From Telopea speciosissima (lineage: Eukaryota; Streptophyta; Magnoliopsida; Proteales; Proteaceae): a DNA stretch of 64,000 nucleotides. Where the stretch lies: assembly GCF_018873765.1 (NCBI RefSeq), contig NC_057916.1:28309501-28373500 (forward strand), given 5' to 3'. Both the position numbers and the translations under genes were made by a program. Shown piece after piece: positions 3,611 to 58,800 of this stretch. Every line of letters starts with the position of its first letter. Position 1 is the stretch's first letter. Under the pieces are notes generated by a model. The model was not told the origin of the DNA, made no database searches, and worked only from the letters and a program-made list of their open reading frames with translations.

Positions 3611-4090
3611 ACGGAGGATATAGTGGCAGTAATTTTTTTGCCGATGCTATGTAACATTTTCTATGGCGATAATATATTACCGCTGCTATATAGGTGGAGT
3701 ATAGTATTTTATGTGACGGTAATATGTTTTTTTGGGTAGAAGTAGCGGTAATATGTTACTGTTTCTATATCAATAAAATTCACGACAGAAAAATATTATC
3801 ATTGCTATGTATCAGTATTACGCGACAGTAATACATTGTCGATGGCATATATTAACAATTAAAAGCGGTAGTAACTGCGACAAAAAGCAAATTTTATACT
3901 TTATATTTAGTGATGATAAATATTTTACCGCTGCTAAATGTCATTATTTCACAATGGTAGTATATTACTACCACTAAATAAATAATATTCGATGGCAAAA
4001 AGCCTTCTAATTAATTCATGTGCCCGCCAAAAATTTCATGTGTGAAGCTTGAATGGAAATTAAAAATCTACCTCTAAATAACTTAGAGGT
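3611..4090. repeat. palindromic GCGGTAATATATTACCGC-type repeat cluster
   Basis: The block holds many degenerate copies of a motif close to GCGGTAATATATTACCGC. About 200 bp of it (roughly 3885-4090) is repeated in direct orientation at about 8970-9200. Such motif arrays are common in the subterminal regions of CACTA transposons, but no CACTA terminus was found. It immediately precedes the large palindrome and ends in its own small hairpin (AATCTACCTCTAA with its reverse). Confidence 0.5.
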
Positions 4091-4123
4091 AGATTAGGAG
4101 ATTTTGGACTTGCAATAATTTGA

Positions 4124-5931
4124 AGATGTCTCATACTCAATGACTTTGGTGACTAATTGAAAGCTACGTTTTAAAATCAGGAATCGGTGATGGAAACGGT
4201 CGTGCCAATTATTGATTCTGATCTGAATCGAATGGAATCAGTCTGAATAACTCTAGAATTGACCTGAAATGACAGAAATTGAAGGAATCTTAGCATGAAT
4301 ATTCAATTCACAACGCTAGAAATCAAAATCAGTCACAATCAATTCTGATACAAATAAGCCGTTTACCGATCCAATTCACCGATTTTTGATACCCTGATTG
4401 AGAGTTGAGACGACTTGAGACCATTCCGTTCTGCGACCTTCAATTTGCACTGCCCAACAGAAATCTTTTTCCCATAAGAGATCCCACACCCACTGACTTT
4501 AGCGGTCACTTAATTGGCGGGTTAAATACGCGTAACCCCCTAAAATGTACCCAATATTCTTCGTATCCCCCTAAGGTTCTGACAAGTCCACGTACCACTC
4601 CTAAAAATTCCATGTACCACCCCTACTTTACCCCCTAAAGCCATTTAAGTCCACACCAGGTGTTAAATGCTAAAAAAGACCAAACTACCCTTTCTTCTAT
4701 CTTTTCTAAAATTTGAAAAGACCTATTTGCCCTGACCTATTTGCTAAAATTTAAAAGACCAAAATACCCTTATCTTCCCCAAATCATCATCTTCTTCTTT
4801 TACATACCCAATACTACCACCACCACCACCCACCATTAACACCATCACCACCGTGAAGCCCCACCTCCAACTCCTCCACCTTTACCGATTCCACCATCGT
4901 GAAGCATCGGTCTCTTCCCCCACCCCTCTCCCAATCTCCCTTCTTCCTATTTAGTTAGTTGTTTTAGGGTTTTCTTTCGAAAGGAAAAAGGTGTTTTAGG
5001 TAGCTGAGATACAGGATTCTGAGTTATAATCTGATTTTGATTTTTCCTTTCGAAAGAAAACCCTAAGACAACTAACTAAATAGGAAGAAGGGAGATTGGG
5101 AGAGGGGTGGGGGAAGAGACCGATGCTTCACGATGGTGGAATCGGAAAAAGGTGGAGCAGTTGGAGGTGGTGCTAGAGGTGGGGCTTCACGGTGGTGATG
5201 GTGTTAATGGTGGGTGGTGGTGGTGGTAGTATTGGGTATGTAAAAGAAGAAGATGATGATTTGGGGAAGATGAGGGTATTTTGGTCTTTTTAAATTTTAG
5301 CAAATAGGTCAGGGCAATAAGGTCTTTTCAAATTTTAGAAAAGATAGAAGAAAGGGTAGTTTGGTCTTTTTTAGCATTTAACACCTGGTGTGGACTTAAA
5401 TGGCTTTAGGGGGGGTAAAGTAGGGGTGGTACATGGAATTTTCAGGGGTGGTACGTGGACTTGTCAGAACCTTAGGGGGTACGAAGAATATTGGGTACAT
5501 TTTAGGGGGGTACGCGTATTTAACCCGTCAATTAAGTGACCGCTAAAGTCAGTGGGTATGGCACCTCTTATGGGAAAAAGATTTCTGTCTGGCAGTGCAA
5601 ATTGAAGGTTGCAGAACGGAATGGTCTCAAGTCGTCCCAAGTCGTCTCAACTCTCAATCAGGGTATCAAAAATCGGTGAATTGGATCGGTAAACGGCATA
5701 TTTGTATCGGAATTGATTGGGACTGATTTTGATTTCTAGCGTTGTGAATCAAATATGCATGCTAAGATTCCTTCAATTTCTGTCATTTCAGGTCAATTCT
5801 AGAGTTATTCAGACTGATTCCATTCGATTCAGATCAGAATCAATAATTGGCACGACCGATTCCGTCACCGATTCCTGATTTTAAAACCTAGTTTTCAATT
5901 AGTCACTCAAGTCATCGAGTATGAGACATCT
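4124..5931. repeat. giant palindrome (inverted repeat with arms near 0.87 kb)
   Basis: The left arm, about 4124-4989, is matched in reverse complement by about 5042-5931. The loop is only about 52 bp. The outer ends are GATGTCTCATACTC and GAGTATGAGACATC. The outer 400 bp of each arm also occurs at 29562-29960, just upstream of lectin receptor kinase 2. The inner 450 bp (about 4531-4989 and 5042-5525) has no other copy in the window and begins GGGTTAAATACGCGTA, so it may be a foldback transposon inserted into that sequence. The outer arms contain a short repeat family (near 4165-4395 and 5657-5890) also seen near 20043-20240. The small open frame at 4405-4638 lies within an arm and is not a gene. 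Confidence 0.9.
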
Positions 5932-6585
5932 TGTGTCAAAAAATTCCATACCTAGAGACTTGGGGAAAATATCTGGATTCTTTCCCATACTATTCCCTTC
6001 TTATCACATGGGGGCCATAGTAATATCTCCCGGCTCATGGTGTTCATACAATGGAAGAGAAGGTAACTGGTTATAGGTATGCCACGCGTCACCAGTTAAC
6101 ATACAATGGACGCTAGTTCACGTCCTTGTACAAGGACATGATCCTGACTCCCTACATCTGAACACTCTCCCTAATAAATTAAAGAAAGAGGAACGAATGA
6201 TCTCCATTTCCAATGTGGCTTAGACTACTTGAAAATTGAGTTATTAGAATATTTGTTATTATTGTATAGATGATCCCAACCGTCGGATCGTAATATCCTT
6301 TATAACATTTTGAGCTTCCAAAATTTAACAATCCTTAAGAACCTTATCAACCCCTATAGCGATTGTACATATGGAGAAGGGAGATGAGCCCACCAACATG
6401 ATTCTCTTTGCTGCCTAACATTGTCAATATATATCAGAAGCACCAGCTAATTAGTTGTACACACTAATTCAAAAGATTAGTTATAATTATTTTTCCATTT
6501 CGTATCTAAAAATTAATTACTCTTGGGAAGGCAAGATGACTATTCAAATATTCATCAACTATCCAACTTAATTGCATCGGATGAA

Positions 6586-6590
<5 letters not shown>

Positions 6591-6624
<34 letters not shown>
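6591..6624. repeat. (GA)n microsatellite
   Basis: A pure GA dinucleotide run of about 17 units. The paralogous position near 34271-34298 has a shorter run. Confidence 0.9.
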
Positions 6625-6626
<2 letters not shown>

Positions 6627-7065
6627 GTAGCCTAGAAGGCAAAATGGTCAAATTGAAAGAAAAAAAATTTGTGAGTTTTAAGAAAGAATTAATTTATCGA
6701 CTATGCTTTTATTAATTATTACATTTACTGACTTATTTAATCAACTAGGTATTTTAAAAAAATGATTAGAGTCGTCAAATTTATAGTTCACCCTGGCCGA
6801 GTCTATATGACTCTTGACCAAGTTTTCCAAAATTTTGACTTGATTCGGGTGACTCGCTTGAATTAAAACTTGATTTTCAAACTATGCTATGAAGTGGATG
6901 TTTTTTTCTGCCTCGAAGGGCATATAAAGTGCCACTATAAGCCGTCGAAAATCCGCCACTAAATGTGGCACCAGTATTACTTTGTATTTTGTAGCAATAT
7001 TAAGTTCCGCCCGTGTAGAGACCTTTAGAGACAGAAGTTATAGCGCCACTAAAGGTTAAATTTTT

Positions 7066-8309
<1,244 letters not shown>

Positions 8310-8533
8310 TAAATTTTTTATTAAAAAATAGTATATTGAAACGGAATACATTTGCCACTAAAGGTTTGCTTTTAAAAAAGTATTACCCTTTAGCAATTAC
8401 CAGCGGTAATTTACCGCCGCAAAAGCTACTTTTTGATATGAAAAAAAATCTTTTTTGTACACAAGTACACAACCAATTTGGTCTCGGATAAAGCATTCAT
8501 TGATCTCATGTACAAAAGTATTCATAAACTAAG

Positions 8534-9493
8534 GCTCTGTATGATAACGTTTCTGTTTTCTTTTTAGTGTTTTTGGGTTCGGCGCACTTTTATGTGTTTA
8601 TGTGTTTTTTGAGCCTTTTTGGGTCCTAAAATGCTGTATGGTAACCCTGAAAAAAAAAAAACGTTTCTAAAGTTTAGAAGAAACAGAAATCTGTATGGAT
8701 TGCACTTAACAGAATCATTTCTGATGTTTACCAAAAATTAGGTAATTACCACCTACACCATGGCTTTTATACTTATGGCCAATCATTGTAATTCCAACAT
8801 CAGTTTTGCTTCTATGATATACTTCCACATACAAAGAAATCAGGATGATAGTAAGAGAGAGAGAGAGAGAGAAGAATTTCTGAATTTTGATTAAAACAGA
8901 ATTGTTTCATCAAACTCCATTTATAAACATTAGACCTATAAAATCTCATTCTTTTCCCTATACAAATTATAAGAGCAAAATTTATACTTTATATGTAGTG
9001 ACGATAAATATTTTACCGCTACTAAATATCAATATTTCACAGTGGTAGTATATATTTTTGGTAGAACAGTGGTAGTATATTACTACCACTAAATATATAA
9101 TATTCAACCGCAAAAAGCCTTTTAAATAATTCATATGCCCGTAAAAAATTTCATGTGTGAAGCTTGAATGGAAATTAAAAATCTACCTCTAAATAACTTA
9201 TATAGTAGCAGTAATATATTACTGCCAGGTTATAGATGTGATGACGGTAATATATTATTGCAGCTATACAAAATTTTGGTTTTTTTATTAAAAATCATAT
9301 GTTAATATGATGATAGTATTACTACTAAAACCTAATATTCTTTATTGGATTTCTAGGGTTTAGGGTGATTCTTGTCAAATCTATTGATTCAAACTATCTG
9401 AGTAAAGTTATCTAGGAAATGAAGTGTTAAGCATATTCACACATTACCATGTATGAAAGTTTTTATTAAAAATAATATAATATATTTATTTAA
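8534..9493. other. intergenic repeat-derived DNA
   Basis: No gene was seen. About 8536-8720 resembles a hAT-type MITE by its start. About 8970-9290 repeats the GCGGTAATATATTACCGC-type cluster of 3.6-4.1 kb. Confidence 0.5.
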
Positions 9494-12135: not shown

Positions 12136-14169
12136 TTAACGTCCTCCAGAGAGTAGAAATTCTGAAACTTTTGGTGATGATGGAATTTTCATCCCCTGAG
12201 AAGAAGTAGAAGGATACGACATGGTTAAACACTCATCAAAGCCTTCGCCATCCACAGATGTTATGCCACTGGCAGACAGACTAAGAGATGACAAATCTGG
12301 TAGAGGGAGTTCTCCCTCCAAATACTGCACAATTTGTCTCATAGTTGGCCTTGCTGTTGGAACACAATGAGAGCAAAGCAATCCAAGATTCAAAACCAAC
12401 TCCATTTCCTTCTCGACATAATTAATCCCCAAGTTTGGATCCACAGTGTCAAGAATTTTCCCTATTCTCTTACAAGAGAACACCCAATCCACCAACATCA
12501 GTTCCTCTGCTGTTGCTCTTGGCTCTATTGGCTTCCTCCCACAAGCAACTTCCAATGTAAAAGCCCCAAATGCAAACACATCTGTGCTTGGGTTGGCCAA
12601 CCCTGTTCTTGAAAGTTCTGGTGCAAGATAACCCAGTGTCCCAACCACTTGTGTTGTTTGAGGATCAGATCCATGGTCATACAATTTCGCAAGTCCAAAA
12701 TCTCCTAATCTTGCATTCATTTCCCCATCCAATAGAACATTACTGGACTTTACATCTCTGTGAAGCACAACCTTCTCCCATTCCTCATGTAGATAAAACA
12801 GTGCAGATGCTACACCTCGAATAATTCGATACCTCTGACTCCAATTCAGCACCGGCATTGATGAATCGAAAAGGAACTTGTCTAGACTTCCATTGGGCAT
12901 GAATTCATATACCAAAAGAAGTTCTCCTTTACGCCGGCAATACCCCAAGAGTGTTACTAAGTTCCGATGTCGTAATTGACCCACGCTAACAATCTCAGCA
13001 ACAAATTCCTTCATCCCTTGTCTTGAATCATGTGAGATCTTCTTCACTGCAACTTCAATTTTGGAAATGGGTAATACACCTCTATAAACTCTACCAAAGC
13101 CACCAATACCAAGAAGCTCCTTGTGCTTAAACCCATCAGTCGCGACGTAGAGATCTTTATACTTGAATCTATGAGGCCCATAATCAAGTTCCCATTCTTC
13201 AAGTACTTCTGCATATTTTATCTTCCTTCTAATCAATATGCCAATTACAATACCTAACACTAAAGCAGAGACAATTACAGGAAGCCCAATGGTCAGAATT
13301 GCTGGTTTCTGGTTGCTTTGGGGAAGTTTGGGAAGCTGGGAGATATTGAATTCATTTGCTTGCCCGTTCAGTTTGAAGCTCCATCCCAATACATAGTGAG
13401 AAGTGAGAATAGAACCAAGAGAGGATGAGAAACCGATGAACATAGACTCTTGCATGATCAGAGAAAGATCGAGAGACTCTGACAAGAGGGGAAGAGCTGG
13501 TTTAGGAACATTTATTGGAGCTAATGTGACGTTTAGCTGTTTGTGTACACCATCATAATCCACCCAGACTTGCATGGAATCGCCACTGATGAGGGTGAGG
13601 TTCTTGGACACACCATCGCTCTCATCGAAATAGGATGCCGGAGCAGAAGCAACAGAGTCCAATCCATTGATATCGATACCGACATGATTGTTGTTGATAT
13701 CATTGAGCTCCTTACTCTCTATGGTATCGAGTTCGATTGCGAATACATTATTGGTTGAATGGCCATTGTCGGTTTCATTGAAGAGGCCAAGATATTGGCT
13801 TGGAAAAGCACCAGGGAAGCCTCTTGTGGGTGCGATGAACCAAGCGATACCGTGACCACCCAAATTGGGATACTGGGGGAGGATGGCAAAAACAAAAGTG
13901 GTCGAGAAGGAGAGTACCGCAGCGGTGCCGGTGCCACCACCGGATGATGATTTGTTGAGGAAGTGAATTGGGTTGGTGTAGAAGGCATGGCCCGTATCTT
14001 GCAATGTATTGTTTGTCAGCAAGAGAAGGCCATTGGATGTGATCTCAGCTATACCGTCCAAGCTCACATGATCAACTCCTCTGAGGCCATGGTAGATGAA
14101 ATCAACTTCTTCTGCTCCAATATTTCTCACAAGAAGGAACAAAACTGTAAGCTTGAAAACGGAAAACAT
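12136..14169 (-). CDS. L-type lectin receptor-like kinase 1
   Basis: This is an intronless gene of 677 residues. Family members are plasma-membrane receptors with an outer legume-lectin domain and an inner Ser/Thr kinase, and several act in defence signalling. Visible parts are a signal peptide (about 1-18), a lectin domain (about 20-270, with AIELDT at 144-149 and NNHVGIDIN at 160-168) and one membrane span (about 291-313). The kinase (about 345-620) has glycine loop GIGGFG at 354-359, Lys376 in VAVKK, HRDVKSSN from 470 and DFG at 490-492. All catalytic residues are present, so an active RD-type kinase is expected. The C-terminus ends LSGGR. The start is supported by the signal peptide directly after Met1 and by the match to the start of gene 2. 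The closest named group is probably clade IV or S.4, judged from memory. Gene 2 at 27.2-29.2 kb is its tandem paralogue. Confidence 0.95.
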   Translation of the reverse strand: MFSVFKLTVLFLLVRNIGAEEVDFIYHGLRGVDHVSLDGIAEITSNGLLLLTNNTLQDTGHAFYTNPIHFLNKSSSGGGTGTAAVLSFSTTFVFAILPQYPNLGGHGIAWFIAPTRGFPGAFPSQYLGLFNETDNGHSTNNVFAIELDTIESKELNDINNNHVGIDINGLDSVASAPASYFDESDGVSKNLTLISGDSMQVWVDYDGVHKQLNVTLAPINVPKPALPLLSESLDLSLIMQESMFIGFSSSLGSILTSHYVLGWSFKLNGQANEFNISQLPKLPQSNQKPAILTIGLPVIVSALVLGIVIGILIRRKIKYAEVLEEWELDYGPHRFKYKDLYVATDGFKHKELLGIGGFGRVYRGVLPISKIEVAVKKISHDSRQGMKEFVAEIVSVGQLRHRNLVTLLGYCRRKGELLLVYEFMPNGSLDKFLFDSSMPVLNWSQRYRIIRGVASALFYLHEEWEKVVLHRDVKSSNVLLDGEMNARLGDFGLAKLYDHGSDPQTTQVVGTLGYLAPELSRTGLANPSTDVFAFGAFTLEVACGRKPIEPRATAEELMLVDWVFSCKRIGKILDTVDPNLGINYVEKEMELVLNLGLLCSHCVPTARPTMRQIVQYLEGELPLPDLSSLSLSASGITSVDGEGFDECLTMSYPSTSSQGMKIPSSPKVSEFLLSGGR

Positions 14170-15515
14170 GGCTTCCGGATTCTGGATCCTTTTCCCTTTT
14201 CTTGGTCCTTAGTTCTGTTCATGAGACGAACGAAACTAATATAAAACAGGAAAATGTACAATTTGACTTTGATAGCAGTTAACCATCATGTGTCAGGTCA
14301 ACCTAGTTACAGAGTCGAAGACTTGGTCGACTATCTAATCAGTAAACCGCATGTAGCCACCAGCCATGGCGGCCATTCCCACTTCAAATTGATAGAATTG
14401 AAGTTGGTGGACGAGGGTAATGCCGTAGTATTACCGGGAATTGGAAGTTAATAGGTCGTGGCAGGATTCGATGGTCAATTAATCTACTCCGCTAAAATCA
14501 TGGTATGTGAAGATTTTGTGTTTCTCGTGTGTTCTACTGTATTCTATGCGCAAGTTTGGCCTGGCAAGACCGAGGGTGAGAGCAACTACCGTTTCTCAAA
14601 AGGAAGTATTCTTCTTTCTAGGAACCAAAAAAATAAAGAAAAGGAAGTATTCTCACCAATGGAATCCGTAAAACCAAAAGTCAAGGTGCGGATCAGGTGG
14701 AGGGTCAAAGAATCCAGGTGTTAGGCACCTCGATGCATCTGGTTAAACTAATATTCGTATCTATTTTTAAATTTGAGAAAAAGAATAGTGCTTGGTTGTG
14801 TGTCTACAGTGTCAAGCCACAGGAGCACGTGAAATTATCACCAAGTCCCTCTTGAAATAATAAATCTCATCTATGCTGATACCTCAATGCGTGTTGGTGC
14901 CAGAGCTACCCGATCAAGTAGCTATCTCTTGCCCGTAAAATTAAACATAACTAATATAAAATATGAAAAACAAAATAAAAAATTAGAGTAGCACATAATT
15001 GATGGTTGGGCTACAATACAAGAAAAATAATATACATGTTTAACAGATGAAAAATGTAAACAAGTTATATTTAGGGGGAAAAGAATCTCATGTTGTCAGC
15101 TCAGAATCGAAATTACATGCCCCCACCTGAAATACTGTAGCTTGTTCGTTAGGAATTGTCCTAAATACCCCCAATTGAATAGGGTCATCTTTTTCAACTC
15201 CTTCCTTTGCCCGAAACTGCACAAAAGCATTGGAGGGAACTTATTCCCTATATTTATAGAATCAACATTAACTAGTTGACATGCAAAACCCTAACTAGCT
15301 AGATTTATGGAATGGCTAAAAACACTATGACCTAACATGCATGAGTGCATTAAGTAATCTAGATAATATTCAAATCACTCTATATACATAGAAAAACCCT
15401 AAAAATGCTTGGATGCATCAAAATAAACCCTAAAAATATAAGAAAAAACATAATACAATAGAGAATAATCACATTCAACACATTTATCAGCATTAGAGAT
15501 GTCATATAAAAAATA
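14170..15515. other. upstream region of lectin receptor kinase 1
   Basis: Short stretches match the upstream region of gene 2. One is GGTAATGCCGTAGTATTAC near 14415; another, near 14473, begins GGTCAATTAA. After that the similarity stops, whereas gene 2 continues into the duplicated segment. The region 15075-15235 is copy 2 of the dispersed repeat first seen at 2116-2302. No other gene was seen. Confidence 0.6.
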
Positions 15516-27199: not shown

Positions 27200-29242
27200 T
27201 CAACGTCCTCCAGAGAGTATCGATTCTGAAACTGATGTTGATTGAGTACTTCTCTTCCCCAGAGAAGAAGGATACGACATGGCAAAATCATCAAAGCCTT
27301 GATCGCTACCTACATATGTTACGCCACCAACATTCAGACTAAGAGTTGACAACTCTGGTAGAGGAAGTTCTCCCTCCAAATACTGCACTACTTGTCTCAT
27401 AGTTGGCCTTCCTGTTGGAATGCAATTAGAACAGAGCAATCCAAGCTCCAACACAAGCTCCATTTCCTTCGCTGCATAATTAATTCCCAATTTTGGATCC
27501 ACAGTGTCAAGAACCATACCTCTGCTCCAGCAAGAGAAAACCCTATCCACTAACACCAGATCCTCTGCTGATGCTATGGGTTCTATTGGCCTTCTCCCAC
27601 AAGCAACTTCCAATATAAAAGCCCCAAATGCAAACACATCTGTGCTAGGGTTGGCCTTGCCGGTTCTTGAAAGTTCTGGGGCAAGATAACCCAGCGTTCC
27701 AACTATATGTGTTGTTTGAGGATCAGATCCATGATCATACAATCTTGCAAGTCCAAAATCTCCTAATCTTGCATTCATTTCCCCATCCAATAGAACATTA
27801 CTGGACTTTACATCTCTGTGAATCACAACCTGCTCCCATTCTTCATGTAGATAAAACAGTGCAGATGCTACACCTCGAATAATTCGAAACCTCTGAACCC
27901 AATCCAGCACCGGCATGAATGGATCGAAGAGGTACTTGTCTAGGCTTCCATTAGGCATGAATTCGTATACCAAGAGAAGTTCTCCTTTACGCCGGCAATA
28001 CCCCAAGAGGGTTACTAGATTCCGATGTCGTAATTGACCGATGCTAACGATCTCAGCAACAAATTCTTTCATCCCTTGTCTTGATTCATGTGAGACTTTC
28101 TTCACTGCAACTTCAATTTTGGAGCTGGGTAACACACCTCTATAAACCCTACCAAACCCACCAATACCCAGAAGCTCCTTCTGCTTAAACCCATTAGTCG
28201 CCATATACAGATCTTTATACTTGAACCTATGAGGTCCATAATCGAGTTCCCATTCTTCAAGCACTTCTGCAAATTTTCTCTTCCGTTTCACTATAGACTG
28301 GATCCCAAATACCGACACCAACACTAAAACAACGGCAATTACAGGTAGTCCGATGGTCATCAGGGGTGATCTCTTCTTGGGTCCTCTTTTGGGAAGTTTG
28401 GGAAGTTGGGAGAGATTAAGGTCTTCTGCTTGTCCGTTCACCTTGAAACTCCATCCCAACACACAGTGGGATGTGAGAACGGAACCGGTAGCAGATGAGA
28501 AACCGACGAACATGGTCTCCTTCATAACCGGAAAAAGATCGAGAGACCGTGATAAAAGGGGAGCAGGTTTAGGATCACCGATTGGAGCTATTGATACATT
28601 GAGATACTTGTGGACACCATCGTAATTCACCCAGACTTGCATGGCGTGGCCACTGAAGAGGCTGAGGTTCTCAGACCGACCGTTCTTATCCAAATAGGTT
28701 ACCGGAATTGAAGCCACAGAGGTCAATCCATTGATGTCGATACCGACATGGTTGTCGTTGATATCATTGAACTCCTTGCTCTGTATGGTGTCGAGCTCGA
28801 CTGCGAAAACATGATTGGTTGAATTACCCACGTTGGACTCATTGAAGAGGCCAAGATATTGGCTTGGAAGAGCACCAGGAAGGCCTTTTGTGGGTGCAAT
28901 GACAAAGGCGATCCCATGACCACTCAAATCGGGATATGGGGGAATGATGGCAAAGACAAAAGTGGTAGAAAAGGAAAAAACAGAGGTGGCACCGGAAGAG
29001 GAAGAGGAAGAGGAAGGGTAAAGGAAGTGAATAGGATCATTGTAGAAAGCATGGCCTTTCTGTTGCCTGGTGGTGTTGGTCAGCAGAAGAAGGCCTTTGG
29101 ATGTGATCTGGGCTAGGCCGTCCAGCTTCAGGTTACTTCCTGTGAAACCATTGTAGGTGAAACTAACTTGTTCACCTTGTGAGGCTACTGATCCAATTCT
29201 GGCGATGAGGAACAGAACAGTAAGCTTGAAAACAGAAAACAT
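27200..29242 (-). CDS. L-type lectin receptor-like kinase 2
   Basis: This is an intronless gene of 680 residues, parallel to gene 1 along its whole length. It has a signal peptide, legume-lectin domain, one membrane span near residue 300, and a kinase with GIGGFGRVYRG, VAVKK, HRDVKSSNVLLD, DFGLARLYDHG and GTLGYLAPELSRTG. It ends LSGGR. An in-frame Met lies 22 residues further upstream (29308). I chose the Met at 29242 because it begins MFSVFKLTVLFL like gene 1 and puts the signal peptide at the start. A serine run near the lectin N-terminal third (28990-29020) differs from the glycine-rich stretch in gene 1. All kinase residues are intact, so it is expected to be functional. Its upstream flank from 29562 is shared with the large palindrome. 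Confidence 0.94.
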   Translation of the reverse strand: MFSVFKLTVLFLIARIGSVASQGEQVSFTYNGFTGSNLKLDGLAQITSKGLLLLTNTTRQQKGHAFYNDPIHFLYPSSSSSSSGATSVFSFSTTFVFAIIPPYPDLSGHGIAFVIAPTKGLPGALPSQYLGLFNESNVGNSTNHVFAVELDTIQSKEFNDINDNHVGIDINGLTSVASIPVTYLDKNGRSENLSLFSGHAMQVWVNYDGVHKYLNVSIAPIGDPKPAPLLSRSLDLFPVMKETMFVGFSSATGSVLTSHCVLGWSFKVNGQAEDLNLSQLPKLPKRGPKKRSPLMTIGLPVIAVVLVLVSVFGIQSIVKRKRKFAEVLEEWELDYGPHRFKYKDLYMATNGFKQKELLGIGGFGRVYRGVLPSSKIEVAVKKVSHESRQGMKEFVAEIVSIGQLRHRNLVTLLGYCRRKGELLLVYEFMPNGSLDKYLFDPFMPVLDWVQRFRIIRGVASALFYLHEEWEQVVIHRDVKSSNVLLDGEMNARLGDFGLARLYDHGSDPQTTHIVGTLGYLAPELSRTGKANPSTDVFAFGAFILEVACGRRPIEPIASAEDLVLVDRVFSCWSRGMVLDTVDPKLGINYAAKEMELVLELGLLCSNCIPTGRPTMRQVVQYLEGELPLPELSTLSLNVGGVTYVGSDQGFDDFAMSYPSSLGKRSTQSTSVSESILSGGR

Positions 29243-29561
29243 GGCGGCTTCCGGATTCTCGAACCTCTGTGAACTCATCATTCCATTTTCTTGGTGCTTT
29301 GATTCCATCTGTTAAAAGGAGACGAACTTAATAAACATGTATGAGTACATCTTGACTTACTAGAATTAGGGGTTAACATTTAGTTGGGTGGTGGTGAATG
29401 TTCACGAATACGATTTCCAGCGGTTCAGATGGAACATTTCCATTAAATGAAGTATCTTTTCCTTTTGGTAGACATTAAATGAAGTATCGACGAAGGGTAA
29501 TGCCGTGGTATTACGGGAATTGAAAGTTAAGAGGTTGATGGGTCAATCAAAGCGGCCAATG
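29243..29561. promoter_or_regulatory. proximal upstream region of lectin receptor kinase 2
   Basis: This is the stretch between the start codon and the palindrome-related segment. GGGTAATGCCGTGGTATTAC near 29486 matches the region upstream of gene 1, so part of the ancestral promoter was duplicated with the gene. No reliable TATA box could be chosen by eye. Confidence 0.45.
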
Positions 29562-30176
29562 GTCAATTAAGTGACCGCTAAAGTCAATGGGTGTGGGATC
29601 TCTTATGGGAAAAAGATTTCTGTCGGCCAGTGCAAATTGAAGGTCGCAGACCGGAATGGTCTCAAGTCGTCTCAACTCTCAATCAGGTATCAAAAATCGG
29701 AGAACTGGATCGGTAAACGGCTTATTTGTATCGGAATTGATTGGGACTGATTTTGATTTCTAGCGTTCTGAATCGAATATACACTAGATTACTTCAACTT
29801 CTGTCATTTCAGGTCAATTCTAAAGTTATTCAAACTGATTCCATTCGATTCAAATCAGAATTCGATAATTGGCACGACCGATTCCGTCACCGATTCCTGA
29901 TTTTAAAACCTAGCTTTCAATTAACCACCAAAAAGTCATTGGGTATGAGACATCTTGTGTCAAAAAATTCCATACGTAGAGACAAAACTCTCCCTTTCCT
30001 TCGAGGAAAATATCCGGATTCTTTCCCATATTATTCCCTTCTTATCACATGCGGGCCCTAGTAGTGTCTCCCGGCTCGTGGTGTTCATACAATGGAAGAG
30101 AAGGTAACTGGTTATAGGTATGCCACGTGTCACTAGTTAACATACAATGGACACTAGTTCATGTCCTTGTACAAGA

Positions 30177-33100
30177 TGTTTACACTCTATTTTTGGTCTA
30201 TTTCGATCAATAGACAAATAGATCGAAATCTATTTATGTCAAAACTGACTTGTTAGTAAGTGATCGAAAAACGGTCAGTGACTGAAAACAGTCAGGCAAA
30301 AAACGGTCAATGATCGAAAACGGTCAGTTCCGTAAAAAACGGTCAATGATCGAAAATGGTCAATGACCGATAAACGATCAGCGACTGACGAACGGCCAGT
30401 GACTGGCGAACGGTCAGCAAAATGGTTGCAACCAACTCTCAAAGAAGTGGGTAGTTATGAAACTACCTAGTATGCCATGAAATGGATTCCTTTGAATTTG
30501 AAAAAAAAATGGGAAGGTGGTGTAGGAGATTATGAGCAGTTGTGTAACCAACTAAAGAGTTCAAATTCAAATTCAAAATGAGAAATGGAAGTTGCTGGAA
30601 TTACCTACAACTCAAGATTTTGCAAGTTTAGTCTATATATAATATTTTCATCTTTTACTTAGGGGGGGATCAACATTTGGAAGAGGCATCATGTTCTGCA
30701 CATCAACAGGCTACTTGACATCATATTGACATCTGTAGGCCAGAAACGAAGACATCATGTTATAGCATCAGTACGCCAAGGCAACCATGTGATCTACCAA
30801 CATCTGTAGGCCAGGGGCATCATGTTATCAACATCAATAGGTTTGAAACACTGGGCATCATGTTCAATATCAACAGGTCATTAGTACCATGTTATCAACA
30901 TCAGCAGGCCAGGAATGGAATGTTGATCTACCATTTTCTTTTGTTTTTTCTTTCCTTCTTTCCTAAATCAATATCAATATCAATATCTTTCTATCTTCCT
31001 CTTCTTAGCATTGCAATCTTTGCATTTGTTTTGAAAAGTCATTGGATTACCAAGGCATTGGTAGAACCCACTCTTTGATTCAATTCACTTTATGGAATAG
31101 GTTCCTCATCCAACAACAGTCTGCAGACCGAAGAAATTTGGGGGAAACAATTTGGCACGCCCAGTGGGACACCAGCCAGAATTGAATCTTATTGCCAAGA
31201 AGAAGAATTGTTGATGAAGGGGATCCAATCCCGAATCAGGCACTGAAAGGTGCTCAACTGGGGGCAAATCCCATTGCAAAAATGGTCAGACCGAAAACGG
31301 TCAGTTCGATCAAAAACGGTCAATAATCAAAAACGGTTAGAAACGATCAATGACCGAAAACGAGAGTCTTATGCAACTACATATGGACTTTATAGCATCG
31401 TCCACAGTGGTTGCAGGGGGCATTGTTTACACCCTATTTTCGGTCAAGACAAATAGACCGAAATGTATTTATGTCAAGAGTGACTTGTTAGTAAGTGATG
31501 GAAAAACGGGCAGTGACTGAAAACAGTTAGAAGCAGTCAGGCCGAAAACGGTCAATGATAAAAAATGGTCAGCTCGGTCAGAAACGGCCAATGATTGAAA
31601 ACGATCAGAAAAGGTCAATGACCGATAAACGATCAGCGACTGACGAACGGTCAGCAAAGTGGTTGCAACCAACTCTCAAAGAAGTGGGTAGTTGTGAAAC
31701 TACCTAGTATGCCATGTGTAGACACTGAATTTTGTCACCCCCCGGCGATGATGACGACAAGACACGGACAGACATCGGTATCTCTCTCAAGAAGGACTCT
31801 TGTCCCTACATCTGAACCAAATCACCCTAACATCCCTAAAATGACTTATCAGACCCTTTTACTAAACGCTAAAGGAGGTACTGCTCACCCTCCCCCACCA
31901 CGGTGGTCCCGCTAGCCGGTTAGCAGGCCGTGGGGGTCTAAGGGGGTAGGCAGCCCCCCTGCGGGGGGTGTAGGGGGGCGAAGCCCCCCGACAGAAAATT
32001 TTCTGTAGAGTCAGAAGGGAGACAAAAATCCAAAAAGACCAAGCCCATGGGCCCAGATAGAACCCCTTTAGAACCCATTTCAGGCCAAAAAACAAAGGAA
32101 AAAAGGCACTGCGCTCCCACGGCGCCATGAGGGGGTGTAACGTCAGCTTGCTGACGTCACCCACAGCGCCGTGGGGGATTTATCTAGCTAGGAGAGAGAA
32201 GGGGCCCCTCCCTATAAATAGGAGGGTCCCCCTCCCTCATTTCCCAAGCTTTTCTCGGGTAAGGAGACCTTCCAGGGCTTGTTTTGCCCCCTTTTCATTC
32301 TCTTTCCCCCCATCTTTTCCGCATGAGTATGTGAGCGAGTGGAGTTCTTCGACCTGGGTAGATCCTTCGGTTATCCATCCAAATATAGAGCGATTCGCTC
32401 TTAGATATTGTTATCCCATCGAGTGTACGGATAACGAAAAACCCCCTTCACTAGTTATTCTGCATCGTATACGGATAACGAGAATCTCTTATATAGCCGT
32501 TACTCGCTCGAAGTCCGAGTGACAAAACTCATCTCGTATAGCCTCATTCTGTCTGACAAGAGAGAGACAAGCCGATCGTCCGTCTCCACCTGAGCCGTGG
32601 GACATCACATATTTCGCCCTCGGTGCGCTTTCATTTATTTTTTGCATTTCTAGACATGTATCTGTCTCTTTCCCTATCATTATTTTTGGCATAATGTAGA
32701 CAATTAAAGCAACTTGTTTAGTGTACATAATAAATGATTTTTTCTTTCTTTATCAATATTAGTGCATCATAACTTAGCCTTACATGTTAGTATATGATAT
32801 ATTATCAAGGGAGAATATTCGAAAACCAACATATAGTAGAAAGACCGATTTATCCGGGCGAGGTGGGTGCCTAACACCTTCCCACCCTTGTAACCTGACT
32901 ACTTACCCTGAATCTCTGACCAGACCATATGGAATCACATAGCCCTTTCCGCTAACCCCGGATGGGGCTACACCCATTGGGTCCTAGGCCCTAATCCTAG
33001 GTGGCGGCTCCATTTCTTTATAAAGCATGATCCTAATCCCCATGATGATATATCGGAACGATACACCGTTATTCATCGAAGCCAATCTTTGTCGCCAAGA

Positions 33101-33815
33101 GGCTGAGGAACCCTCGTCCCGAGGACCATGGTACTTACACAATGAAATGGGTTTCTTTGAATTTGAAAAAAAAGTGGGAAGGTGGTGTAGGAGGTTATGA
33201 GCAGTTATGTAACCACCTAAAGAGTTCAAATTCAAATTCAAAATGAGAAATGGAAGTTGTTGGAACTACCCACAACTCAAGATTCTGTAAGTTTAGTCTA
33301 TATATAAGATTTTCATCTTTTACTGAGGGGGGGATCAACATTTGGAAGAGGCATCATGTTCTACACATCAGCAGACTACTTGACATCATATTGACATTTG
33401 TAGGCCAGAAACGAAGACATCATGTTATAGCATCAGTAGACCAAGGCAACCATGTGATCTACCAACATCTGTAGGCCAGGGGCATCATGTTATCAACATC
33501 AGTAGGTTTGAAACACTGGGCATCATGTTCAATATCAGCAGGTCATTAGCACCATGTTATCAACATCAACAAGCCAGGAATGGAATGTTGATCTACCATT
33601 TTCTTTTTTGTTTTTTTCCTTTTCTTTCCTAAATCAATATCAATATCAATATCTTTCTATCTTCCTCTTCTTGGCATTTCAATCTTTGCATTTGTTTTGA
33701 AAAGTCCTTGGATTACCAAGGCATTGGTAGAACCCACTCTTTGATTCAATTCACTTTATGGAATAGTTTCCTCATCCAACAACGGTCTCCAGACTAAAGA
33801 AATTTGGGGGAAACA
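30177..33815 (+). mobile_element. non-autonomous LTR retrotransposon, fossil, with a nested solo LTR
   Basis: The 5' LTR is 30177-31149 (973 bp). The internal part is 31150-31423. The 3' LTR is 31424-33815, or about 964 bp without the solo LTR inserted in it. LTRs start TGTTTACAC and end GGGAAACA. The 5-bp target duplication is CAAGA/CAAGG (30172-30176, 33816-33820). A TTTGGCACGCCCAGTGGGAC-type sequence directly follows the 5' LTR, at the usual primer-binding position. With only 274 bp inside and no gag or pol, it is a small-interior non-autonomous element. The LTR contains an array of CGGTCAATGACCGAAAA-like units and a second array of ATCATGTTATCAACATC-like units. The LTRs have visibly diverged, so it is not recent, but it postdates the segment duplication. 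Confidence 0.85.
31717..33139 (+). mobile_element. solo LTR (Tat-like Ty3/gypsy family), nested, fossil
   Basis: It starts TGTAGACACTGAATTTTGTC and ends GTACTTACA. The 5-bp duplication is CCATG/CAATG (31712-31716, 33140-33144). It lies inside the 3' LTR of the element at 30177-33815, so it is the younger of the two. The order of motifs (GGTGCCTAACACCTTCC, TAGGTGGCGGCTCC near the end) suggests the Tat lineage. A single LTR without an interior is the product of recombination between two LTRs. The small open frames inside are not genes. Confidence 0.85.
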
Positions 33816-34267
33816 CAAGGACATGATTCGGACTCCCTACATCTGAACACTCCCCCTAATAAATTAAAGAAAGAGGAACGAATGATCTCCATTTCTAATG
33901 TGGCTTAGATTACTTGAAAATTGGATCAATAAAATATTTGTTATTATCGTATAGATGATCCCAACCATCAGATTGTAATATCCTGTATAACATTTTGAGC
34001 TTCCAAAATTTAACAACCCTTATGAAGCTTATCAACCCCTATAGCAATTGTACATATGGAGGGAGATGAGCCCACCAAGATGATTCTCTTTGTTGTCTAA
34101 CATTGTCAATATATATCAGAAGCACTAACTAATAAGTTGTACATACTAATTCAAAAGATTAGTTATAATTATTTTTCCATTTCGCATCTAAAAATTAACT
34201 ACTCTTGGGAAGGCAAGATGACTATTCAAATATTCATCAACTATCCAACTTAATTGCATCGGATGAA

Positions 34268-34298
<31 letters not shown>

Positions 34299-34737
34299 TT
34301 GTAGCCTTGAAGACAAAATGGTCAAATTGAAAGAAATTTTTTTTGTTAGTTTTAAGAAAGAATTAATTTATCGACTATGCTTTTATTAATTATTAAATTT
34401 ATTGACTTATTTAATCAACTAGGTATTTCAAAAAATGATTAGAGTCGTCGAATTTATAGTTCACCCTGATCGAGTCTACTTGACTCTTGACCAAGTTTTC
34501 CAAAATTTTGACTTGATTCGGGTGACTAGCTCGAGTTAAAACCTGATTTTCAAACTATGATATTAAGTGGATGTTTTTTCTGCCTCTAAGGGCATATAAA
34601 GTGCCACTATAACCCATCAAAAATCCGCCACTAAATGTGGCACTAGTATTACTTTGTACTTTGTAGCAATATTAAGTTCAGCCCGTGTAGAGACCTTTAG
34701 AGGCGGAAGTTATAGCGCCACTAAAGGTTAAATTTTT

Positions 34738-37336
<2,599 letters not shown>

Positions 37337-37441
37337 TAAATTTTTTATTAAAAAAAAAGTATATTGAAACGGAATATATTTGCCTATGCTTTTAAAAAAG
37401 TATTACCCTTTAGCAATTACCTGCGGTAATTTACCGCTGCG

Positions 37442-37472
<31 letters not shown>

Positions 37473-37568
37473 ACCGCCGCAAAATCTACGTTTTGATATG
37501 AAAAAGAATCTTTTTTGTACACAAGTACACAACCAATTTGGTCTCGGATAAAGTATTCATAAACTAAA

Positions 37569-42686: not shown

Positions 42687-45600
42687 TGATGCAGCTCCAA
42701 GTAGGAAGAAGAAGAAGAAGCCCTGAACTTAGGGCTTGATTAGGGAGCCATAGATTAGGACTATTATTTTCCATACTTAGTTTATTTTCCTGTTTTTAGA
42801 TTGAACCGGTTTAGAATTGGTTGCACCCAATTGGTTCATTTGGTCTAATTTAAGTGAAGTGTTCCTATTGGTTAATAGGTCCTTAAATCCTATTGGCTAG
42901 TAGGGAATCTTCTTTTAAATTAGTTGTTTTAAGTTAGAGTCTTTTAATTTAAGTTAGTAGGGGTATCTTAGTCAATTTACTGTTTTAAATTAGTTAAGTT
43001 AGATTTACATCTCTCCCTTCCACGATTTTGTGAAGGAGAAGACTTTAATTTGTATTAGGAGTTGGCATAAAGCCATATTATAAATAAAGAAATCGTGGAG
43101 GGCTCCCCCACATTGAATTTGAATTTAAAAAAGACTGTTACTGCTGGCCGATTGCTACTGCTGCTGTTACTGCTCCTTTGTGAGTGTATCCTTGTGGATT
43201 TCAAGGTGGATAGGGTGAGTGGACTCCTACGACTCCTTGCATCGAGAAGATCGGGAGGTTCCTTCAATTATCAAGCTACTGCCGGTGGATTCCTACTGTA
43301 AGTTTGAAGCTTAATTTCTGTTTTTCCATTCATCCTCCCTCCCAATCATTCCCCTTTTTAATTTTATTTGAATCCCATCAAAACCCTAAGCTTCCATTAT
43401 CCCATCGATTCCTTTAAACCCTAGATCATCTAGGTTACATTAAACCTTCATCCATTATCAGAATTCAATCAGATTCAGACCACAGCCCCTTCATACCACT
43501 ACCTATACTCGACCCCAAGCTGCTGCCTTATTTGTCTCTCAAACCCTAAAATCCCCCAACTCCATTAAACCCCAAAAACCCTAAAATTCCTGAATCAGTA
43601 CTTCCAACCATCAAAACCTCTCATACTTGGATCGAGCCCTTCCCTCCCTACCTGGAAAATTCGATCCTAACTCTAGCCCTAAACTCCCATTAAAAACCCT
43701 AATTTCAACCTAAGTTCTAAATCCCAAAACCCAAAACCTAGAATTTCAGAATTTTAATTTTCTGTTTAAACCTATTCCAAACCTATTCCATTAGCTTCCT
43801 TTTGACCTGCACATCATTACTAAATAAAACCCTAGCTCAAATCCCTAATTCTGCCCTAGTTTACCTATTCTGCCCATTCGAACCAGCAGTCCATTGAGAT
43901 CCTGTTGCTTGGCCTCTAATAGGATCCTTCTCCTATTTAGAGCTACATTAACTTGGTATCAGAGCCATGGCTGAACATGGCAATCCAGTGCTGCCACAAC
44001 CACTCGATCCTTTGGCAGCAATGTTAGAGATGTTTCAAAAATTTACTGCTGTCCAGAAGACTTTGGTTGAAGATTTTAGAGCTGAACAGAGAGCTATTGC
44101 TGAAAGGCTGCAAGTAATTGAGCATAGACAACTTGCACTTAATGGGGACAGCAATGTACCCATAGAAGAAGACAAGTATCAACTCCATTCAGTGGTACAG
44201 AGGCTACCTGACAGAGATGGGAGCCCCAGAGATGAATACAGGGGTTATAGAGATGGACACATAGGTCACAGGGATGGATTCAGGACTGACCGAGATGACA
44301 GGGATGGTAGAAATTATTATAGAGATCGTCAGGACAGACCTAGAGATGCCCATGAGCCTTCTAGGGAACACAGAGATCACCACCGAGGCTACAGAGACAG
44401 AGATAGAGAAGACCGGGACAAAAATAGAGGTCACCAGCCTACTTTTGAGGAGTATATGAGGTCCTACTTCACTGGAAACCAGGGTACTAATCGGCGCTAT
44501 ACAGGCAACCAAAAGGTGAAGCTTGAGCTGAAAGAATTCAATGGTCACTCTGACCCCCAGGTGTTTTATGACTGGCTTGCTGCAATAGAAGATTATTTCG
44601 ACTGGTATGACCTGTCTGAAGAGGGGAAAATGAAGTTAGTCCGTGCTAAACTTGTCGGACCAGCACGTGAGTGGTGGAAAACTACTGAAAGAGAGATGGA
44701 CTTTAATGGTACTGCACCCCGCACTTGGGAAGACATGAAATATGACCTGAGTAAGCAATACTTACCAAGGCACTTCAGGTCTCAGCTACAGGATCAATTC
44801 AACTCCCTCCGCCAAGGAACCATGACTGTGACTGAGTACATGAGGAAATTCGATGCTCTTTCTTCTCGCACTGGCATTAGGGAGGAGGGCATCCAAATGC
44901 TTTCCCGGTTCAAGTTGGGTCTGTCAAGTGAGATCAACAGGACAATTGGGGTGGTTGACGTTGCAGACGTTCGAGATTGTTTTGAGAAGGCCTTGAAAGC
45001 AGAGGAGCTATTAGCTTCAAGTAAACAGCCGGGTTCTACTTTCAAGCCGGCCTACATCAACACTAGCACCTCAAAACAAGGTTCCTCTATAAGCAGCACC
45101 TCTCGCCCTGCTGTTTCCCCACGTGTGGATGATAAGGGCAAAGCTCCTATGGGCCGAAATGACCCTTTCACTTGTTATTACTATTAAGACAAGGGGCATA
45201 TTGCTAGGGACTGCCCACACAAGAAGAAGTCTGTCAACGTGGCTGAAAAGGAAGGAGTTCAAGGTGAAGGTGAAGACCAGGGCGGAATTCATTGCCATGC
45301 ACTTCCTCCTGATGATGATGACGATGTGGCTGCTTATCTTGAAGACGAAGTTAATGATCCTAGAGGTGTTCATGTGATCCTTCAAGAGGCTGCTGCCCAG
45401 CCGGAGTTCCAGCCTTCTTCATCCGTCAAAGAGCTGTTGTCCGCATACAAACTAGAACCATCTGCTGAAGATGAACTCAAGAAACTTGATCCTGATTTGG
45501 AAGACCATTCTGTGATCTCCAGCCATTCATCGGAGATGAATGCTTTCAAGACGGGGAGAGTTGATGCAGCTCCAAGTAGGAAGAAGAAGAAGAAGGCCTG

Positions 45601-46837
45601 AACTTAGGGCTTGATTAAGGAACCATAGATTAGGACTATTATTTTCCATACTTAGTTTATTTTCCTGTTTTTAGATTGAACCGGTTTAGAATTGGTTACA
45701 CCCAATTGGTTCAATTGGTCTAATTTAAGTGAAGTGTTCCTATTGGTTAATAGATCCTTAAATCCTATTAGCTAGTAGGGAATCTTCTTTTAAATTAGTT
45801 GTTTTAAGTTAGAGTCTTTTAATTTAAGTTAGTAGGGGTATCTTAGTCAATTTACTGTTTTAAATTAGTTAAGCTAGATTTACATCTCTCCCTTCCACGA
45901 TTTTGTGAAGGAGAAGACTTTAATTTGTATTAGGACTTGGCATAAAGCAATATTATAAATAAAGAAATCGTGGAGGGCTCCCCCACATTGAATTTGAATT
46001 TAAAAAAGGCTGTTACTGCTGGCCGATTGCTGCTGCTGCTGTTCCTGCTCCTTTGTGAGTGTATCCTTGTGGATTTCAAGGTGGATAGGATGGGTGGACT
46101 CCTGCAACTCCTTGCATCGAGAAGATCGGGAGGTTCCTTCAATTATCAAGCTACTACCGATGGATTCCTGCTGTAAGTTTGAAGCTTAATTTCTGTTTTT
46201 TCATTCATCCTCCCTCCCAATCATTACCCTTTTTAATTTTATTTGAATCCCATCAAAACCCTAAGCCTTCATTGTCCCATCGATTCCTTTAAACCCTAGA
46301 CCATCTAGGTTACATTAAACCTTCATCCATTATCAGAATTCAATCAGATTCAGACCACAGCCCCTTCATACCACTACCTATACTCAACCCCAAGCTACTG
46401 CCTTGTTTGTCTCTCAAACCCTAAAATCCCCCAACTCCATTAAACCCCAAAAACCCTAAAATTTAAGAATCAGTACTTCCAACCATAAAAAACCTCTCAT
46501 ACTTGGATCGAGCCCTTCCTCCCTACCTGGAAAATTCGATCCTAACCGTAGCCCTAAACTCCCATTAAAAACCCTAATTTCAACCTTAGTTCTAAATCCC
46601 AAAACCCTAACCCTAGAATTTCAGATTTTTAATTTTCTGTTTAAACCTATTCCAAACCTATTCCATTAGCTTCCTTTTGACCTGCACATCATTACTAAAT
46701 AAAACCCTAGCTCAAATCCCTATTCCTAACCCTAATTCTGCCCTAGTATACCTATTCTGCCCATTCGAACCAGCAGTCCATTGAGATCCTGTTGCTTGGC
46801 CTCTAATAGGATGATTCCCCTATTTAGAGCTACATTA
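42687..46837 (+). mobile_element. gag-only LTR retrotransposon, fossil
   Basis: The 5' LTR is 42687-43950 and the 3' LTR is 45562-46837, both starting TGATGCAGCTCC and ending CTACATTA. The 5-bp target duplication CCCTA is exact (42682-42686, 46838-46842). TGGTATCAGAGC just inside the 5' LTR is the common plant primer-binding site for initiator tRNA-Met. A purine-rich tract (ACGGGGAGAG) precedes the 3' LTR. The interior of about 1.6 kb holds a gag-type region beginning at 43967 (domain words such as LKEFNGHSDPQVFYDWL and LSKQYLPRHFRSQL). No protease, reverse transcriptase or integrase was seen. It is non-autonomous, of the terminal-repeat-plus-gag kind. The coding part looks broken at about one point. 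The LTRs are very similar by eye, suggesting a fairly young insertion. Confidence 0.9.
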
Positions 46838-48204: not shown

Positions 48205-48600
48205 TAGGGTTGCAATAGGGTCGGGTTGGGTCGGGCTTTTTAAAACCCAGCCCAACTCTGAGTCTCCTTAGTTGGGTCCAAACCCAGCCTTGACTCAAGG
48301 TCCGAAAAATCTAACCCTGATTTGCCCTCAGGGTTGGGACGGGCTGAACTTGACTGGTCCTGACCATGGGGAGGGATAAGGGAGATGCAGGAGCTGGCCA
48401 GGCCAGGAAGAAGAAGAAAAAGAAAGAAGACGAAGAAGAAAGGGCCGGGCTCAGTCCAAAACCTCAACCTGGCCCTTCCCAACCTTGACTCAGGGCCAGA
48501 ATTCCCAACCCTGAACTGCCTCCTGGCAGTGTATCTCAGCTCAGGCCTTGTTCAGGCTCAGGGAAAGCTCCGGCCAACTGGGCTAAGCTTGCAACCTTAA
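48205..48600. mobile_element. hAT-like non-autonomous element, second member
   Basis: Ends of the TAGGGTTGCAA and TTGCAACCTTA type, with GGGTCGGG and CAGGGCC words inside, as in 24052-24931. CTTAAGT occurs at both borders (about 48198 and 48596), a possible target duplication. The open frames here come from the repeats. Confidence 0.55.
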
Positions 48601-48854
48601 GTCATAGTCTCCTAGGCAAGCAACGGTACAGAGGAAAGAAACGCTGGTTTAAGACTGAGCAAAAGGTACACATTACAACACAAAATTACAGGATAACAAG
48701 TCCATTAAGATTACAGAGATTTTGATTTATATATATAAATTATCCGACTCTTCTTCCTGTTTGCCTAGGGAAACAAAAAACATTTTATTATCCTTCCTTG
48801 AGCACAGGCAATTGAGGCAAGACTCCTATTTTTCTTACAAAAGCAAGAAGACCC

Positions 48855-51655: not shown

Positions 51656-51707
51656 TGTGGGATCCGACTGGGTGTGATCGAAGGTGGAGCGAACTGAAAG
51701 GCTCAGT

Positions 51708-51743
<36 letters not shown>

Positions 51744-51960
51744 TAGACTCTTCTTGAGCAGAGAAGGTAAAGAGTATGAAAGGCTTATAACAGTGAGTTT
51801 GAGTGTGCAGATGAACTGGGGAATCCGGTGGTTTGCCTTACGAATTCCAACGGCCACACAATGGAGATTAGCTGCTCTGACACGTGGCGTCCTTATAGGT
51901 AAGCTATTGGTTAGGGATAAAATTACAAAATGGGGGCATCTCGCTACAAAAAGCCTTCCG
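51656..51960 (-). promoter_or_regulatory. promoter region of Rubisco activase copy A
   Basis: On the minus strand a TATA-like TTATAAG lies at 51784-51790, about 130 bp upstream of the start codon. A G-box (CACGTG at 51881-51886, within GCCACGTGTC) lies about 95 bp further up. Both are found at matching places in copy B. G-boxes are common in light-regulated photosynthesis genes. A CT/GA microsatellite at about 51711-51738 falls in the presumed 5' UTR. Confidence 0.6.
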
Positions 51961-52136
51961 TGGTCAAGGTTTAAGCTGTTCTCTTCTCCACTAAAATTTA
52001 GCTTCCTCTTTAAAAGAAAATGAAACTATTTTTCTTAATTAGTATTAGAAAACAAAAATAAAACCTAAATTTTATTCAGATTCTCTTACCCCAAAAAAAA
52101 TTATTCAGAATCCAAGCGTATTTTTATCTGCACCTT

Positions 52137-55433: not shown

Positions 55434-55686
55434 TGCTGACCTTGAGCCACAATCTCCACGGTAAGCAAGGGTGGACAGACAGGAAGGGTAGTTTAAAACT
55501 GAGCAAAAGTATACATTACAAATCAAAATTACATGATAACTAATTTTAGACAACAGAGATTTTGATTTATATATAAATTATCCGACTGTTTCTCGTTTGC
55601 TTAGGAAACATAAACGTTTTATTATCCTTCCTTGAGCATAGGCATTGAGGCACAGTTCCTAATTTCTTACAAAAGCAAGAAGACCC

Positions 55687-58454: not shown

Positions 58455-58800
58455 AGTGGGATCCGACTGGCTGTGATCGAAGGTGGAGCGAACTGAAAGG
58501 CGCAGAAGCGCAGGGCGTGCGAGCCTCTCTCTCTCTCTCTCTTGAGTGATGGATCTTCTTGAGCAGATAAGGTGCTGAGTAGGAAAGGCTTATAACAGTG
58601 TGAGTTTGAGTGTGCAGATGAAGTGAGGAATCCTGTGGTTTTGGCTTGCGAATTCCAACGGCCACACAATGGAGATTAGATGGTTTGAGCTCTGACACGT
58701 GGCGCAATTTTAGGTAAGCCGTGGTTGGGGATAAAATTACAAAATGGAGGGTTCTCGCAACTAAGTGCCTTCTGCGGTTAAGGTTTAAGCTGTTCTCTTC
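58455..58800 (-). promoter_or_regulatory. promoter region of Rubisco activase copy B
   Basis: A TATA-like TTATAAG (58589-58595, minus strand) and a G-box CACGTG (58696-58701) sit at the same spacing as in copy A, and AAGCTGTTCTCTTCTCCACT is shared near 58785. The conserved block between copies reaches about 58830, which fits a tandem duplication that included the promoter. Confidence 0.6.

Follow-up and report, generated by a model that had tools for sequence, protein, structure and literature searches.

A palindrome in Telopea speciosissima with a Mutator-like element end at its core, probably made by fold-back break repair

Mu killer of maize, well known as a dominant silencer, arose spontaneously when one Mutator end was duplicated in inverted orientation. 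The PAI inverted repeat of Arabidopsis is built from gene copies and includes their coding sequence. According to one account, both terminal inverted repeats (TIRs) of Mu killer come from one end of MuDR by inverted duplication and a through-transcript would be a long hairpin (PMC3440606). The same account ties silencing by Mu killer to antisense transcripts which are short and unable to form large hairpins, and the hairpin model is therefore disputed even for Mu killer (PMC3440606). Human inverted duplications are described with fold-back, an unduplicated spacer and template insertions at the junctions (PMC3907307), and fold-back inverted duplications are described in yeast as well (PMC7467729).

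In this study, we describe a palindrome in a 64,000-nt window of the Telopea speciosissima genome (NC_057916.1, 28,309,501-28,373,500). All coordinates refer to this window, negative ones lying to its left, and genome-wide searches were run over the 823-Mb genome. The palindrome had been predicted at 4124..5931, and a near-perfect mirror is indeed found at 4123-5932 (Table 1). It resembles Mu killer in being an inverted duplication of one Mutator-type element end, as it appears, although two pre-existing TIRs are possible. Mu killer differs in that it carries about 1.3 kb of mudrA per half and was discovered through its silencing effect, whereas the arms described here consist of TIR, subterminal DNA and 400 bp of mirrored host flank and hold no recognised transposase sequence. 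The original prediction had invoked Mu killer and PAI as inverted repeats whose siRNAs silence matching genes. The comparison with Mu killer is apt, but for another reason, namely that both loci appear to be inverted duplications of one Mutator-type end. With PAI the palindrome shares an inverted repeat and a homologous single copy elsewhere. It differs from PAI in that the arms are not homologous to the coding sequence of any of the three neighbouring kinase genes (genes 0, 1 and 2); it is the DNA upstream of gene 2 that matches, and the only kinase coding sequence is 25 nt of filler, which sit close by the left arm but outside it. Mirror copy, unduplicated spacer and short junction insertions are features in common with the human fold-back duplications, which the same source portrays as very large and in many cases accompanied by terminal deletions (PMC3907307), whereas the palindrome has arms of about 0.9 kb and is chromosome-internal and in a plant. 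As in non-autonomous plant Mutator-like elements (MULEs), there are GGGTTAAATACGCG-type ends, long TIRs and, in the family copies, 9-bp target duplications; unlike them, the copy in the window lacks a target duplication and is mirrored along with its flank.

Table 1. Features of the palindrome and its surroundings (window coordinates; negative positions lie left of the window)
Feature	Position	Strand	Remarks
Gene 0 (L009), lectin receptor kinase	about -2543 to -438, from MIFIF start	same orientation as genes 1 and 2	homology -2486 to -405
Direct duplication, left copy	3883..4085	+	flanks segment 4086-8970
Snap-back hairpin, left junction	4065..4095	.	31 nt, 14 pairs, loop of 3
Kinase filler, 25 nt	4091..4115	+	identical to DFG-motif coding region of gene 2, 27769-27745
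Outer left arm	4123..4518	-	copies 29956-29564 (DNA upstream of gene 2) in inverted orientation
Inner left arm	4519..4989	+	MULE TIR plus subterminal DNA; GGGTTAAATACGCG outermost
Turn of palindrome, 11 nt	4990..5000	.	covered by 0 of 15 matches outside the window
Inner right arm	5001..5526	-	same MULE end as left; extends 40 nt further inward than left copy
Outer right arm	5527..5932	+	copy of 29562-29960 upstream of gene 2; contains diverged dispersed repeat 5659-5889
Continuation of copied upstream DNA past palindrome	5933..8500	+	match to gene 2 side
Direct duplication, right copy	8971..9200	+	flanks segment 4086-8970
Gene 1, L-type lectin receptor kinase	12136..14169	-	Pfam Lectin_legB and Pkinase
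Gene 2, L-type lectin receptor kinase	27200..29242	-	Pfam Lectin_legB and Pkinase
Third outer-arm copy	29562..29960	+	upstream of gene 2; possibly original place

Each arm of the palindrome is about 870 bp long. Over 868 aligned columns the two differ by 35 substitutions (4.0%), besides which there are 27 gap columns, and a spacer of 51 nt (4990-5040) lies between them. The longest exact mirror stretch measures 101 nt, compared to a maximum of 28 and a mean of 11.4 in 200 letter shuffles. No open frame of at least 150 codons overlaps 4123-5932. The palindrome is a composite, in which the outer 400 bp or so of each arm and the inner 1008 bp (4519-5526) are of different origin. An assembly artefact from palindromic reads was considered and is unlikely, given the 4% divergence between the arms, their indels and the complexity of the left junction.

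Concerning the outer arms, the predicted match to 29562-29960 was recovered with 92% identity for the left and 89% for the right arm. Position 29562 lies about 320 bp upstream of the start codon of gene 2 (ATG at 29242), as had been stated, and gene 1 was correctly said to have only about 30 bp of this sequence (14471-14500, a weak match of 80% with an E value of 1.5). Over the genome, the outer arm gave 24 matches. It is present at full length at three places only, all within 26 kb; the other 21 matches are partial, with 67-79% identity save for two short ones at 89% and 100%, and the five partial matches that were examined contain a diverged dispersed repeat internal to the arm. The homology to the DNA upstream of gene 2 does not end with the palindrome. 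It runs on to about 8500, so that one upstream segment is present twice, as 5527-8500 and as 29562-37560, with about 3 kb shared in three collinear blocks (5527-6134/29562-30175, 6130-8120/33815-35792 and 8109-8500/37137-37560), and two stretches lying between these blocks in the gene 2 copy are missing from the palindrome unit. Past the palindrome, the copied flank shows 151 substitutions in 2510 columns, about 6% (counted over 5935-6132, 6132-8100 and 8130-8500 against 29962-30173, 33817-35780 and 37160-37560). When 5933-8120 was searched against the genome, the sole other long collinear match, with 40 of 1455 candidates scored, was the one near gene 2, for 6130-8120; the other listed matches are shorter and mostly fall on dispersed repeats inside the query. 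At 7057-7437 lies a dispersed repeat, about 380 bp in length, whose numerous genome copies are mostly of 75-88% identity.

The segment copied upstream of gene 2 has to be seen together with the kinase genes themselves. Besides genes 1 and 2, there is a full-length paralogue just left of the window, gene 0, with one open frame of 747 codons and a protein 72% identical to those of genes 1 and 2. It is the kinase gene closest to the palindrome, and about 4.5 kb separate its start from the palindrome, which is on the upstream side. Among the three kinase genes, the divergence of the coding sequences is 16-17%, compared to about 6% for the copied segment; the segment was thus probably copied later than the gene duplications took place, and a reading of the upstream match as part of a kinase gene duplication was rejected on the same figures. 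Comparison of the DNA upstream of gene 1 and gene 2 reveals clear resemblance up to 29535 and weak similarity at 29559-29586 (E value 1.5). This weak similarity near its left edge suggests that 29562-29960 is possibly the original place of the segment. Neither a MULE nor a visible footprint was seen at 29562 in the present gene 2 copy, where the target duplication of a hypothetical MULE would be GTCAATTAA. This counts against the fold-back reading given below, for which the MULE must have been present on another haplotype, have been cleanly excised or have been inserted after the copying.

Several further repeats were observed in the window. On the gene 2 side, 30176-33815, one of the stretches missing from the palindrome unit, has ACAAG at both edges and contains direct repeats (30477-31149 and 33142-33815) which are 94.5% alike, and upstream of gene 2 two sequences of about 1 kb (32118-33139 and 35793-36840) are inverted repeats of each other with 89% identity. 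An LTR-type element is found at 42687-46837, with direct repeats of 95.5% identity (42687-43950 and 45562-46837), CCCTA on both sides and an enclosed gag frame at 43952-45187 (Retrotrans_gag). Moreover, 48594-52009 and 55439-58823 are a 3.4-kb duplication, 88% alike, each copy of which has a minus-strand open frame that resembles AAA/Rubisco activase.

The inner 1008 bp, judged from the sequence of related copies, are two mirror copies of one MULE end, and this end makes up over half of the length of the palindrome. When 4400-5010 was searched against the genome (1896 first-look candidates, 40 scored), 41 matches were listed outside the window, and 36 of them start at query position 119-122, corresponding to 4518-4521. 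Twenty of these places, picked among the best matches, were fetched, four of them again with longer flanks, and 12 proved to be two-ended. Long terminal inverted repeats are common to the dispersed copies, as expected for a Mutator-like element, and 9-bp target duplications (at least 8 of 9 positions, allowing a shift of one base) flank 11 of the 12 two-ended copies. Seven of these are perfect and in frame, two perfect with a shift of one base and two match at 8 of 9 positions; the sole two-ended copy in which no target duplication was found is L036. The target duplications of L028, L033 and L039 are T-rich and L033 and L039 have common flanks; the two 8/9 copies, T-rich and with common flanks, are probably a single insertion that was duplicated. 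The 9-bp target duplications and the G-rich ends assign the family to the Mutator-like elements. One member, L044, spans 8 kb between its TIRs and encodes a MuDR-type transposase in two open frames, one with the domains DBD_Tnp_Mut (PF03108) and MULE (PF10551), the other with SWIM (PF04434). In the 12 two-ended copies the TIRs are 218-483 bp long, interiors can be short and TIR alignments show 75-93% identity (in L044, one 125-bp block reaches 97%), compared to about 97% between the whole inner arms of the palindrome. Around the window copy no target duplication was found, 4510-4518 and 5527-5535 agreeing at 3 of 9 positions. Flanks mirrored over more than about 10 bp were seen neither in the 12 two-ended copies nor in the other eight fetched stretches. 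Just inside the left end of another MULE copy (L037:1588-2307), we observed a Frigida-like coding fragment which looks like gene capture, of the type that we take to be a Pack-MULE.

Both the turn and the outer junction of the palindrome carry marks of their own. At the turn, family sequence stops by 4989 on the left and restarts at 5001 or later on the right, and no match among the 15 from outside the window spans 4990-5000. The spacer is unduplicated, 40 of its 51 nt being family sequence on the right side only. At the outer junction on the left, the snap-back hairpin and the 25-nt kinase filler correspond to the templated insertions or microhomology expected of a fold-back duplication. The hairpin was also picked up by a sigma-70 scan, a tool built for bacterial promoters from which only the hairpin was taken. 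No snap-back follows the right copy of the direct duplication, which continues into TATAGTAG. The filler, extended to 4088-4115, agrees with gene 0 at 27 of 28 nt, and its source could be another kinase gene; only one of 3000 random 37-mers of the window equalled its score against the three kinase coding sequences, and this one may overlap the filler itself. The two copies of the direct duplication, of about 200 bp, differ by 17 mismatches and one 27-bp gap, and their final 57 nt are identical. This sequence has three matches in the genome including itself, one of which is a 42-bp fragment, which leaves two substantial copies only. That the pair belongs to a dispersed repeat family was rejected for this reason.

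Divergence gives some indication of the order of events. The left and right outer arms differ from each other at 21 of 395 positions and from the gene 2 copy at 27 of 391 (left) and 29 of 393 (right); private changes in 391 columns number 9 in the left arm, 11 in the right arm and 17 in the gene 2 copy. The outer arms are thus closest to each other, only slightly so, which weakly suggests a shared origin after the copying. When the arms are split at 4511, the inner parts show 14 substitutions in 478 columns (2.9%) and the outer parts 21 in 390 (5.4%; Fisher p 0.08), a difference in age that does not reach significance. The inner arms are therefore not more diverged than the outer ones, which fits mirroring in a single event. 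Taken whole, the arms (35/868) are less diverged than the copied flank (151/2510, p 0.03). These figures would fit a single mirror copying, either once the segment had been copied or towards the end of that process. The right inner arm is 98% identical to the MULE copy L026 and 97% to the left arm, in a tree in which good support was obtained for 4 of the 29 inner branches, and this slightly nearer relationship leaves room for two pre-existing TIRs, against a single event.

In our view, the palindrome is probably an inverted duplication that arose by fold-back, template-switching break repair at a MULE end. This reading draws on the nested anatomy, the membership of the inner arms in a MULE family with 9-bp target duplications elsewhere, the lack of a target duplication at this locus, the filler, the direct duplication and the homology to the gene 2 side that runs on past the arms. 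The segment of about 3 kb which is common to the DNA upstream of gene 2 would have ended at a MULE end about 4.5 kb upstream of gene 0. A DNA break at or in this MULE end, adjoining the copied upstream DNA, would have let the strand turn back there, and fold-back synthesis with template switching may then have added a mirror copy of the MULE end together with about 400 bp of the DNA next to it. Short fillers would have been picked up before the product was sealed, leaving the direct duplication of about 200 bp on both sides of the segment 4086-8970. The direction of copying, from gene 2 to the palindrome locus, is what we infer here, as are the event order and the repair pathway. It is unlikely that a normal MULE with two TIRs lost its interior and that its flank was mirrored later by a separate event. 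The long TIRs and sometimes short interiors of the other two-ended copies are in keeping with such a course, and so is the closeness of the right arm to L026; yet it predicts inner arms older than the outer ones, which if anything are the older, and the TIR alignments of the 12 two-ended copies, one 125-bp block of L044 aside, fall short of the identity seen over the whole inner arm, their range ending at 93%. Far less probable still is an ordinary foldback or MITE-like transposon whose terminal repeats would be the outer arms, 29562-29960 then being a solo arm. Such an element would show mirror arms that are long and nearly perfect around a short spacer, but the match with the third copy runs past the supposed right element end, the three full-length matches of the outer arm cluster within 26 kb, and no target duplication was seen at 4123/5932 in the alignment, read by eye. 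Outer arms as transposon ends were rejected also because the genome search found no dispersed copies ending at 4123 and 5932.

With regard to silencing, the claim that a through-transcript would form long dsRNA agrees with the fold predicted for RNA 4400-5660 (-1103.5 kcal/mol, a value without a shuffle control at that length). Exact 24-mers of 29562-29960 occur in the palindrome in 82 of 376 cases, whereas none of its 24-mers is found in 14164-15163, upstream of gene 1, and none of its 21-mers or 24-mers in the coding sequences of genes 0, 1 and 2. Each of the 20 fetched MULE places, chosen among the best matches, has 13 to 211 exact 24-mers in common with the palindrome. Five partial outer-arm matches were likewise fetched; L007 and L008 have 6 and 1 palindrome 24-mers, respectively, and the other three none. 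The claim that the palindrome is aimed at the promoter of gene 2 found no support; the segmental copy of about 3 kb, which extends past the arms, explains the homology. The more specific claim, that gene 2 would be the target and gene 1 spared, is supported insofar as palindrome 24-mers are found upstream of gene 2 and not in 14164-15163 upstream of gene 1; it is weakened in that the MULE ends form a wider set of predicted targets and that gene 0 had been left out. A silencing contrast between gene 1 and gene 2 is possible in principle. If the palindrome is transcribed, its siRNAs would match MULE ends genome-wide, and the DNA upstream of gene 2 would be a side target at most.

Most likely the palindrome is a relic without a selected role. 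We judge the chances about even that it makes some siRNA and quite small that gene 2 is measurably silenced. It is improbable that the palindrome is a natural hairpin-RNA locus, with siRNAs that act on the upstream DNA of gene 2 to silence this gene and leave gene 1 unaffected. Near-perfect dsRNA is predicted in the event of transcription, and the distribution of exact 24-mers favours gene 2 over the upstream DNA of gene 1 and over every kinase coding sequence. However, the homology comes from a segmental duplication and extends to where there is no hairpin, the common part lies at least 320 bp upstream of the start codon, the inner arms, over half of the whole palindrome, match MULE ends instead, and the contrast omits gene 0. 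A locus like Mu killer, with a hairpin that silences its own MULE family in trans regardless of gene 2, seems a little less improbable, though still doubtful. Its build is the same as that described for Mu killer, both TIRs coming from one element end by inverted duplication (PMC3440606), and the family includes a member with transposase domains, L044, whose locus has 78 exact palindrome 24-mers. Against it stand the arms, which in Mu killer hold transposase sequence and here TIR and subterminal DNA, their drift by 4%, and the dispute over the hairpin model for Mu killer itself (PMC3440606); a family of so high a copy number, moreover, may be silenced anyway. It is very unlikely, and more so than either of these alone, that one repair-made hairpin locus outside maize, with element end and host upstream DNA in the same dsRNA, both silences a MULE family and marks the upstream region of a neighbouring lectin kinase.

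A search of an open-access library gave no title that points to a second Muk-like locus with MULE and siRNA, which is not proof of absence. Homology between a hairpin and a promoter is by itself not evidence of targeting, as a segmental duplication yields the same match. A build of the Mu killer type in another plant, where the junctions are legible at single-base level, suggests a way in which loci of this kind can arise: the route may be a fold-back at an element end that also captures the adjoining host DNA.
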